DNA from: an uncultured Holophagaceae bacterium
GTDB lineage: Bacteria; Acidobacteriota; Holophagae; Holophagales; Holophagaceae
Assembly (NCBI GenBank): GCA_903937385.1
Contig: CAIZZF010000014.1
Location: 1 to 64,000 of the forward strand
Direction: 5' to 3'
DNA length: 64,000 nt
Shown: positions 89-2,906 of the stretch, one piece after another
Layout: each line of letters opens with the position of its first letter
Position numbering within the stretch: position 1 is the stretch's first letter
The notes under the pieces: model-generated
The model's input: the letters and a program-made list of their open reading frames with translations, nothing else
Told to the model about the DNA's origin: nothing
Database searches by the model: none
Program-made: the position numbers and the translations under genes

Positions 89-133
89 GGGGGTCAGGAG
101 TTTTGTCGCTAAGGGGGGTCAATAGTTTTGTCG
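89..133. repeat. Pair of 20-bp direct repeats (IS end)
   Basis: GGGGGTCAGGAGTTTTGTCG at 89-108 recurs at 114-133 with only the two bases after TCA changed (AT for GG). The period is 25 bp. Such repeats inside an IS end usually serve as transposase binding sites. The last 24 bases of the response regulator ORF lie in the second copy. Confidence 0.8.
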
Positions 134-525
134 GTTGACACCAGTTCGCGACGTCGCAGGCGGGTTGCCACGGCGCTCAGCAGTTCCTTAGCAGAGAAGG
201 GCTTGGTGAGGAAATCGTCGGCGCCGAGGTTCATGCCCTTACGTTGGCTTGCACGGTCCGTCCGGGCAGTCAGGAGCATGAAGGGGAGGTTTGCCAGTGC
301 TGGATTCCGCCGAACGGCTTCCAGGACGCCAAAGCCATCCAAGCCCGGCAGCATCAGGTCGCACAGAACCAGGTCTGGAGCGGGCACCTCGAACAGGAGT
401 TGGAGCCCAGTGACCCCGTCCGGCGCACTCCGCACCACATAACCTTCGAGTTCGAGCAGCAGGCAGACGTTCTTGCGGCTGTCCGCATCGTCCTCAATGA
501 GCACAATGACGGGCTTAGGCTGCAT
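109..525 (-). CDS. Single-domain response regulator, C-terminus altered by IS end
   Basis: A 138-residue receiver domain of a two-component system. The acidic pocket (E11, D12, D13), the phospho-acceptor D56 in LVLCD, the switch T87 (LLTAR) and K108 (TKPF) are all present, so the domain should be phosphorylated and switch normally. The start ATG overlaps the last 11 bases of the upstream histidine kinase, so the two are translationally coupled and probably cognate. From residue 129 on (VSTDKTIDPP) the protein is encoded by the IS terminus. The receiver core is complete, but any natural C-terminal tail or output domain has been lost. Whether an output domain once existed cannot be told from this window. 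Confidence 0.88.
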   Translation of the reverse strand: MQPKPVIVLIEDDADSRKNVCLLLELEGYVVRSAPDGVTGLQLLFEVPAPDLVLCDLMLPGLDGFGVLEAVRRNPALANLPFMLLTARTDRASQRKGMNLGADDFLTKPFSAKELLSAVATRLRRRELVSTDKTIDPP

Positions 526-1855
526 GGTTACCTCTCAAAAGCGCCTTCAAACGGATGCGGATCCTGGTTCCCCGGCCTTCCTGGCTGTCCAGTTCAAGGT
601 CGCCCCCAAGCAACGCCAGGGCATCCCGGACAATGCTCAAGCCAAGCCCGGTTCCTCGCACAGCACCGCTGTTGGAGCCGCGTTGGAACCGCGTGAACAC
701 GCTGGCCTGCTCGGCCAGGGGAATGCCAATGCCGGTGTCCTCCAGTTCCAGGATCAAGTCCGACCCTGACTTCCGTGCACGCAGCAGGACTCGACCCTCC
801 GCAGGTGTGTATTTCTGGGCGTTGTTCAGCAGGTTGCTGAGGACCTGTCGCAGAAGTTCCTCGTTAACCTTGACCACCCCGAGGTCTGAGGCCAGATCCA
901 GTTCGACTCCCGGAGTATCCCCAGTGGCCCCGTGGCTGGCGGCGAGTTCCTGGATCCAGGGGTTCAGGGGGAATTCCCGGGCCTCACCACCAGATCCACC
1001 TGCGTCCAGCCGGTGCATGAACAGCACATCGTCGATCATGCTGGTCAGGTGAAGGACTGCCGACCGGATGCGGGTGGTCATTTCCAGGTGGCGCTCGGGC
1101 TCCAGGCGTTCCCGATGGCGTTCGAGGATGTCGGTACTGGTGCCAATGGCATGGAGGGGGGTGCGGAATTCATGGGAGACCGTGGTGATGAATGCCTCCC
1201 GGAGGGCTGCCAGTTCGGTCCGTTCGCGAACAAGTTCGAGCAGTTCCCGTTCGCGCTTCCAGCCTTGGCGCCGCCCCCGGCTGACCCAGGAGGTAGCGGT
1301 CAGGCCGATGAGGTGGGCGACAAGGTAGGCCATGAGAATGGAAAGCAGGGCCACGAAGCCCACATGCACCTTCACGAAGAGCGCGAAGAAGATGCCGGCA
1401 GTGGAAAACAACAGGGGCACTGAGGCTTTGATCCAGCGGCGGTCCGGCATGATCGCGTACATGGTCAGCACGCCGATGACTTCCAGGGTCACGTTCTGGC
1501 TGTAGGTTCGAGGGCGGCTGGTCAAAACGGCCAGGTTCGACAGGAATATGCCCACGCCGAGGGCCAAGGCCCAGGCTTCCTGACTACGTGGACTGCGGAC
1601 CCTGGGGACAGCCACCACCATGGCCACGCAAAACCCAATAAAGACCAAACGGACGGTGAGCAGGGCGTAGAAGGCTCCAGTGCTGCCAAGGAGCGCTTGA
1701 TCGGCGGCGATGAGGAGCGCATAGGCGGCCCCGAACAGGACCGCACCATAGACCAGGATGGTTCCATCGATGGCGAGGTGGTCCAAGCGGTACTGGGCCT
1801 CCTCCTCGGGGGCAAGGAGGTCCAGACTGGTCAGGAAAGGAGTAAAAGGCGACAT
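515..1855 (-). CDS. Membrane sensor histidine kinase
   Basis: A 446-residue kinase. The N-terminal 190 residues hold about six hydrophobic segments with short loops, an integral-membrane sensor of unknown ligand. A short coiled linker then leads to a HisKA helix with phospho-acceptor H228 (SHEFRTPL), and a HATPase domain with N box (LLNNAQKY), DTGIGIP and GTGLGLSI. The ATG at 1855 is chosen because the reading frame upstream of it looks non-coding (charged, no hydrophobic signal); the Shine-Dalgarno is weak. The gene overlaps the downstream response regulator by 11 bp, its probable partner. Confidence 0.88.
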   Translation of the reverse strand: MSPFTPFLTSLDLLAPEEEAQYRLDHLAIDGTILVYGAVLFGAAYALLIAADQALLGSTGAFYALLTVRLVFIGFCVAMVVAVPRVRSPRSQEAWALALGVGIFLSNLAVLTSRPRTYSQNVTLEVIGVLTMYAIMPDRRWIKASVPLLFSTAGIFFALFVKVHVGFVALLSILMAYLVAHLIGLTATSWVSRGRRQGWKRERELLELVRERTELAALREAFITTVSHEFRTPLHAIGTSTDILERHRERLEPERHLEMTTRIRSAVLHLTSMIDDVLFMHRLDAGGSGGEAREFPLNPWIQELAASHGATGDTPGVELDLASDLGVVKVNEELLRQVLSNLLNNAQKYTPAEGRVLLRARKSGSDLILELEDTGIGIPLAEQASVFTRFQRGSNSGAVRGTGLGLSIVRDALALLGGDLELDSQEGRGTRIRIRLKALLRGNHAA

Positions 1856-2074
1856 GCGGCAGTCCGATGGGGGCTGTCTACAGTATGACCCGCTTGAAGC
1901 CATGGGCCGGGCCTGGTGCTCAGAAGTACAATGAATAAAGGTCTTGACTCGTCGCTTCAGCCGAAGATCATTCAGTGCCGCCCCTTCGGTGAAACCGGCC
2001 ACTTCCTTGAGGCCCTCCCTGAAGTGCACAGAGGACCCCTTCCTCATCCTGAGTCGGTCCTGCAAAGAGGAGTC

Positions 2075-2444: not shown

Positions 2445-2906
2445 ATGAACCCACCACCCGCGAGAGTCTGTCACTGGTGTGGGAAGGATTCGGGTTTCGG
2501 GACGTGGCCTCTCCCAAGCCATATCTGCAAGTCGTGTTATGCGGAGCTGCTCGGGGTGCCCGCCCTGACAAGAGAGGAAATCGACACCCTGCCCTATGGA
2601 GCGATCGAGCTGGATGCGACTGGCTCGATCCTCAGCTACAACCAGGCGGAGGGAGAGCTCGCAGGACTGGACCCCGCCCGAGTCATCGGAAAAAACTTCT
2701 TCAAGCAGGTTGCCCCCTGCACCGATGTGAAGGCATTCCACGGTCGGCTCGCAGAGTTCATCCATTCGGATGCTGGTCCGCAGTCCTTTGCCTTCATCTT
2801 CCAGTTCCCGGGCGGGCCTGTGGAGGTGAACATCACGTTCATCAGCACCGATCGGGAGACCGCGATGGTGCTCGTCCATACGCTCGGCTCGAAACCAATG
2901 CCCTAA
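2445..2906 (+). CDS. Photoactive yellow protein-like PAS sensor with N-terminal CxxC/CxxC motif
   Basis: A 153-residue protein in two parts. Residues 9-31 contain C9xxC12 and C28xxC31, spaced like a small zinc ribbon. Residues about 46-150 match the PAS fold of photoactive yellow protein (PYP) closely: LPYGAIELD, YNQAEGELAG, VIGKNFFKQVAPCTD. Residues equivalent to PYP Y42, E46 and C69 are all kept (Y65, E69, C92); C69 is the cysteine that carries the p-coumaroyl chromophore and Y42/E46 hold its phenolate. PYP T50 and R52 are replaced by A73 and L75. No tyrosine ammonia-lyase or dedicated coumarate ligase lies nearby, so chromophore supply is unproven. A cytoplasmic light or redox sensor is inferred; a non-photoactive PAS is the alternative. 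Confidence 0.82.
   Translation: MNPPPARVCHWCGKDSGFGTWPLPSHICKSCYAELLGVPALTREEIDTLPYGAIELDATGSILSYNQAEGELAGLDPARVIGKNFFKQVAPCTDVKAFHGRLAEFIHSDAGPQSFAFIFQFPGGPVEVNITFISTDRETAMVLVHTLGSKPMP

Follow-up and report, generated by a model that had tools for sequence, protein, structure and literature searches.

The gene at positions 2,445 to 2,906 of the window (the whole stretch of 64,000 nucleotides that was analyzed, from an uncultured Holophagaceae bacterium) encodes a member of the PYP family in which a PYP-type PAS domain follows an N-terminal four-cysteine ribbon, an architecture that we call ribbon-PYP. The original prediction of this combination is real and was understated, as the architecture forms a conserved branch that reaches phages. 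To judge from the sequences compared here, the PAS domain and the ribbon are kept together under purifying selection in this branch, which is also present in phages. Our preferred reading, which we hold tentatively, is that the protein is a PYP-family sensor with the ribbon as its output, and that the phage copies may act on a lysogeny repressor. The features of the window are the following.

109 to 525, minus strand: receiver-like ORF, read by eye, diverging from the ribbon-PYP gene
515 to 1,858, minus strand: histidine kinase (HisKA, HATPase_c), diverging from the ribbon-PYP gene
2,445 to 2,906, plus strand: ribbon-PYP gene, 153 aa, ATG start (ORF reading; TIGR02373 E 1.1e-29; dN/dS about 0.14 against L003)
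2,469 to 2,537, plus strand: four-cysteine ribbon, residues 9–31 (C9, C12, C28, C31), from the sequence, pattern in 26 of 26 relatives, zinc putative
2,574 to 2,885, plus strand: PYP-type PAS domain, about residues 44–147 (matched stretches 44–134 with TIGR02373 and 44–130 with H. halophila PYP; domain end estimated from the 46-row alignment)
2,637 to 2,639, plus strand: Y65, equivalent of PYP Y42 (ungapped alignment to H. halophila PYP)
2,649 to 2,651, plus strand: E69, equivalent of PYP E46 (same alignment)
2,718 to 2,720, plus strand: C92, equivalent of the chromophore-binding C69 (same alignment)

The open reading frame and its residues are as first described. Residues 44–134 match the NCBIfam model TIGR02373 (photo_yellow) with E 1.1e-29, and residues 44–130 align without a gap to the H. 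halophila PYP sequence from the PDB (E 2.2e-21, 46% identity over the shared stretch), whereas the Pfam PAS match is far weaker (E 4e-10). The claims that the domain keeps the equivalents of Y42, E46 and C69 and that it is more than a random PAS match are thereby borne out, and in the family alignment that had been proposed as a check C92 falls on the C69 position and not outside it. Two facts would suit a chance likeness between an ordinary PAS domain and PYP: Pfam files the domain under PAS, and its TIGR02373 score of 103.1 bits misses the equivalog cut-off of 143.05 bits. However, the PYP matches surpass the others by many orders of magnitude and the identity to H. halophila PYP is 46% over the shared stretch, and with the two PYP matches in hand we rejected this explanation as extremely improbable. 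According to PMC9664959, TIGR02373 recovers only about 20% of the homologs of PYP that BLAST retrieved, and membership in the family is defined by homology together with Cys69, Tyr42 and Glu46 being usual and not required. The window protein is a PYP family member by this definition, since among PAS domains it is closest to PYP and carries the Cys69 equivalent C92; the Tyr42 and Glu46 equivalents are both present as well.

The suggestion that changes at the T50 and R52 positions make the protein special did not survive comparison. The window protein has A73 and L75 there, identical to the Ala50 and Leu52 of the consensus of 984 PYPs given in PMC12826048, and we rejected these positions as an oddity. 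Real differences from H. halophila PYP are Gly at M100 and Phe at 94 and 98. The sole structure model, by AlphaFold from 3 sequences, had a pLDDT of 57.5, which is too poor for use and counts against our preferred reading.

The four cysteines lie at C9, C12, C28 and C31, where the original prediction had placed them, in the arrangement CHWC-x15-CKSC, that is, CxWC-x15-CxxC with two CxxC knuckles. The pattern CxWC-x(8-17)-CxxC, with all four cysteines kept, occurs in all 26 proteins with this architecture, a count that is a check on the grouping and not an independent sample because the rows were assigned to the ribbon group by the N-terminal reach of their profile match. When 19 other PYP frames were checked for the pattern, only L005 had a CxxC, a single one that precedes the probable start. 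A pair of CxxC knuckles, the first with a fixed W between its cysteines, is typical of zinc ribbons.

It is unlikely, in our estimate, that the ribbon is instead a disulfide redox switch or an iron-sulfur or other metal site, with the PAS domain only tuning it. Such a ribbon would fit the Pfam results on the window protein, where no ribbon model passed its cut-off (Gin E 0.074, 13.5 of 27 bits; DZR E 0.16, 12.6 of 27.3 bits), so that our ribbon call rests on the four conserved cysteines; it would also fit a spacer that ranges from 8 to 17 residues, and the identity of a metal is not readable from sequence. The knuckles with their fixed W speak for zinc, as does a similar HGICxxC ribbon in other proteins of the genus. 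A search for that pattern in 3 genomes gave 9 places in two of the three; by eye, a CxxC...HGICxxC ribbon lies near the C-terminus of 6 larger frames (L113, L115, L116, L118, L119 and L120, in G000 and G033), and a short frame, L121, has CAWC...HGICxxC.

The sequences searched came from Acidobacteriota samples, plasmids, INPHARED and IMG/VR. The PAS alignment holds 46 stretches, from 26 ribbon proteins (20 bacterial and six viral) and 20 other PYPs. C69 and E46 are invariant in all 26 and likewise in all 20 others, and N43, G59, F62, F63, A67 and P68 are invariant in the 26 despite a lowest pairwise PAS identity of 28%. Y42 is Y in each of the 20 bacterial ribbon-PYPs, and is F (five) or V (one) in the virus copies; this loss counts against the preferred reading. 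So does position 100, which is Met in none of the 26 ribbon proteins as against 12 of the 20 other PYPs. Work on H. halophila mutants links M100 to the return to the dark state, and its absence suggests a slow return if a chromophore is bound.

The window gene is under purifying selection: against its 91% identical relative L003, dN is 0.048 and dS 0.340 (NG86), and dN is below dS in all six pairs compared, with ratios of about 0.09 to 0.22. In a tree built without the ribbon columns, one branch splits the 26 ribbon proteins from the 20 others. This branch is moderately supported (69/85; 70% of 200 bootstrap trees), a point against our reading, and L178 and L166 have long branches, so a single origin of the fusion is likely on this tree and not proven. 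Inside the ribbon group, a branch sets the virus rows apart together in 76% of bootstrap trees. The PYP-type sensor reading draws on several of these results: PYP is the best match, all 26 proteins retain C69, E46, the six further invariant residues and the ribbon cysteines, dN falls well short of dS in every pair, and one branch separates the 26 proteins from the 20 others.

A PYP match was found in 24 of 77 genomes of the family, and 19 loci in 18 of them align from the ribbon onward, all 18 belonging to the genus of the window; with 47 genomes of that genus listed, the distribution within it is patchy. The other six matching genomes of the family (G034, G080, G083, G085, G088 and G093) have PYPs without a ribbon, that of G034 being short. 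In a set of 396 Acidobacteriota genomes, 20 had a PYP match (14 of the genus, one of the family and five of other families), and the ribbon was present in one of the last five, G170 (L166). The total is 20 distinct bacterial ribbon-PYPs in 19 genomes, 18 of the genus and one other from the Acidobacteriota, where L003 (an uncultured Holophagaceae MAG contig) and the G023 copy were counted once. Plasmids gave nine records with PYPs; five were read out, and none of their six PYP frames has a ribbon.

Several other arrangements were noted in these genomes. The genome of the window itself (G000, 97.8% complete, 30 contigs) has a second ribbon-PYP, about 64% identical to the window copy, at G000:C5:240369-240797 (L002, L049); a PAS-rich hybrid histidine kinase lies downstream of it, and a GGDEF-FHA gene lies upstream. 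On contig C16 of G170 (L167), about 10 kb separates a ribbon-PYP from a plain PYP. By eye, a histidine-kinase-like part follows the PYP in L140 (G088) and L142 (G093), whose genomes share the family of the window's genome, and a V4R-like domain follows it in L145 (G080) and L164 (G402). In L141 (G083), L144 (G085) and L163 (G251) the PYP forms the C-terminal end of an EAL-like protein. In the excerpts of PMC12826048, EAL is described only with PYP at the N-terminal end.

When the bacterial neighborhoods of 17 ribbon loci were compared, with the G063 and G065 loci left aside, 11 lay at one place, downstream of a gene with malic-enzyme and phosphotransacetylase domains (in L062), and six lay elsewhere; no neighbor is common to all copies among the loci compared, which weighs against our reading, and the G170 locus has no evident operon. 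An operon with the histidine kinase and the receiver-like ORF of the window was rejected, as these genes diverge from the ribbon-PYP gene and other genes occupy the place in the 91% identical relative (L059). An operon with tatD, which begins 29 nt downstream of the ribbon-PYP gene, was also set aside: the adjacency is kept in the 91% sister and absent from the 11-genome locus, and is therefore no argument for function. At G015, a Pyr_excise gene (L055:10991-11425; 1.9e-20), of the pyrimidine-dimer DNA glycosylase family, lies about 0.75 kb from the ribbon-PYP; that a gene for UV repair lies close to a putative light sensor is perhaps due to chance.

For virus copies, a profile scan of IMG/VR with the bacterial alignment found five contigs, and a DNA pattern scan found the same five, a sixth (L190) and one spurious match (L187), which was rejected as a 109-aa frame without PYP likeness. 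The proteins of all six contigs keep the ribbon, E46 and C69. Four further IMG/VR scans gave no additional ribbon-PYP contigs; the scans need exact short patterns, so the count is at least six. Terminase, portal, major head, head protease or tape-measure genes are present in five of the six contigs in the stretches read. The sixth, L176, has a primase-helicase and no structural genes within the 7 kb sampled. When Terminase_6N was run against all six complete records, two matched, one of them over the cut-off, and a tyrosine integrase is present in two contigs (L190 and L181). PHROGs at E 1e-4 gave no family for the window protein (P0001) or for the L175 PYP, and the INPHARED phages held no match for the window protein, the L174 PYP or the L190 repressor. 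A prophage search with a phage-led profile in 396 Acidobacteriota genomes, apparently the same set as above, added only two weak ribbonless matches. The genes upstream of the virus PYPs are as follows.

L175: directly upstream, same strand, 220 aa, 4-nt overlap, Peptidase_S24 (1.9e-12)
L176: directly upstream, same strand, 209 aa, 11-nt overlap, Peptidase_S24 (1.4e-16)
L190: directly upstream, same strand, 292 aa, 20-nt overlap, Peptidase_S24 (2.1e-17)
L174: an HTH_3 gene, then an IrrE-like Peptidase_M78 gene (3e-12), then the PYP after 25 nt
L178: upstream gene of 95 aa, 4-nt overlap, weakly like an Arc repressor (E 0.0011)
L177: upstream gene of 237 aa, gap of 9, no family match

The three S24 genes also match the PHROG annotation 'transcriptional repressor'. 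A recognized repressor module thus lies directly upstream in four of the six contigs, S24 of the CI/LexA-like kind in three and HTH with an IrrE-like protease in one, which we take to be an ImmR/ImmA-like module; the weak match in L178 and the absence of any in L177 count against our reading. From this gene content we infer that the virus PYP region is an immunity region. The phage part of the preferred reading draws on the structural genes in five contigs and the repressor modules in four.

On the supply of a chromophore, the original prediction had noted that no chromophore-making genes are close by, and the whole-genome check extends this statement. Among PF00221 lyases, the residue pair HL marks TAL and SH marks HAL. 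The genome of the window has one PF00221 lyase, with the SH pair as in histidine ammonia-lyases, so that no TAL-type lyase was found among its PF00221 matches; nor does it have a PYP-type coumarate ligase, the best match being 33% identical over about 105 residues, and 13 other AMP-binding genes are present. Both absences count against a PYP-type sensor. A typable lyase is present in 17 of the 19 ribbon-PYP genomes and is HAL-type in each, G028 having a lyase fragment only and G011 (72% complete) no lyase. The six virus records hold no PF00221 lyase. Elsewhere in the same class, G048:C369 (L066) has pyp, a PYP-type ligase and a TAL-type lyase (YHL) in a row. Four genomes of the family (G083, G085, G093 and G088; L157–L160), each with a non-ribbon PYP, encode an additional PF00221 lyase, whose motif RYHGCGLG has neither the HL nor the SH pair.

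These absences invite the explanation that the protein is a former photoreceptor, now a thiol, redox or acyl-CoA sensor that uses C92 for other covalent chemistry and to which light is irrelevant. We consider this rather doubtful, though a serious competitor. It would account for the lack of a TAL-type lyase in all 17 ribbon-PYP genomes with a typable lyase, for the missing PYP-type ligase in the window's own genome and for virus copies that lost Y42 and have no lyase. Against it, Y42, E46 and C69, together with F62, F63, A67, P68 and F96, are kept in 20 of 20 bacterial copies. The missing TAL is moreover weak evidence: in PMC12826048, TAL occurs in only 5% of 113 pyp operons and pCL in 32%, and uptake of p-coumarate is considered. 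As a control, the G050 PYP scores over the family cut-off and sits beside a PYP-type ligase, and the lyases of that genome have only SH and FH pairs; a missing HL lyase therefore does not exclude a working PYP.

Under the preferred reading of a PYP-type sensor, C92 in the PAS pocket would bind an aromatic ligand covalently as a thioester, either p-coumaroyl or something close to it, from an acid taken up and not made from tyrosine. Blue light, or gain or loss of the ligand, would change the fold, and the ribbon would hold a structural zinc and serve as the output face for contact with a partner. For the phage PYPs this partner is probably the regulator whose gene lies immediately upstream, and the PYP may work as an antirepressor or co-repressor at the lysogeny switch. 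Small blue-light receptors that antagonize repressors are known, BluF with BluR in E. coli and LdaP with PpsR in Dinoroseobacter shibae, which speaks for this mode. More speculatively, and with little confidence, temperate phages could possess their own PYP-type photosensor, translationally coupled to the lysogeny repressor, through which blue light or an aromatic acid from plants would contribute to the choice between dormancy and lysis; the window gene belongs to the same branch.

How PYPs transmit their signal is called an important gap in the abstract of PMC12826048. A built-in ribbon, and in phages a candidate partner one gene upstream, bring the question of PYP output within reach of experiments on just two small proteins. 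By itself, the bacterial protein would count as a modest variant, and it is the phage branch, mostly beside repressors, that gives reason for the experiment. If the phage copies sense light, a photoreceptor would bear on the lysogeny decision, for which the titles and opening lines of abstracts searched yielded no precedent. The same search, in whose scope most subscription journals did not fall, yielded no ribbon-PYP or phage PYP. The claim that an N-terminal double CxxC is not a feature of known PYPs agrees with the two main texts, PMC9664959 and PMC12826048: neither has the words 'zinc', 'Geothrix' (our tentative guess at the genus of the window) or 'Holophaga' or treats phages, and 'CxxC' is absent from one of them.

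Among known systems, the window protein is most like the PYP family as represented by H. halophila PYP, with which it shares the PAS domain with Y42, E46 and C69 and the VIGKNFF..VAPCTD stretch. It differs in the four-cysteine ribbon that replaces the usual N-terminal cap, in Gly at M100, and in a genome without a TAL-type lyase or PYP-type ligase; the gene row of L066 is like that published for H. halophila. The ribbon is similar to the HGICxxC ribbon found in sensor-like proteins of that genus in having CxxC followed by (H)GICxxC, but those proteins are larger and have a longer spacer and a C-terminal ribbon. The phage CI/LexA-like S24 and ImmR/ImmA-like modules are of the same kinds as those upstream of the virus PYPs in four of the six contigs, and we know of no such phage module that carries a PYP. 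BluF/BluR and LdaP/PpsR work in the same mode as that proposed for the phage PYPs, but they are BLUF and LOV flavoproteins, not PYPs, and are not phage switches.
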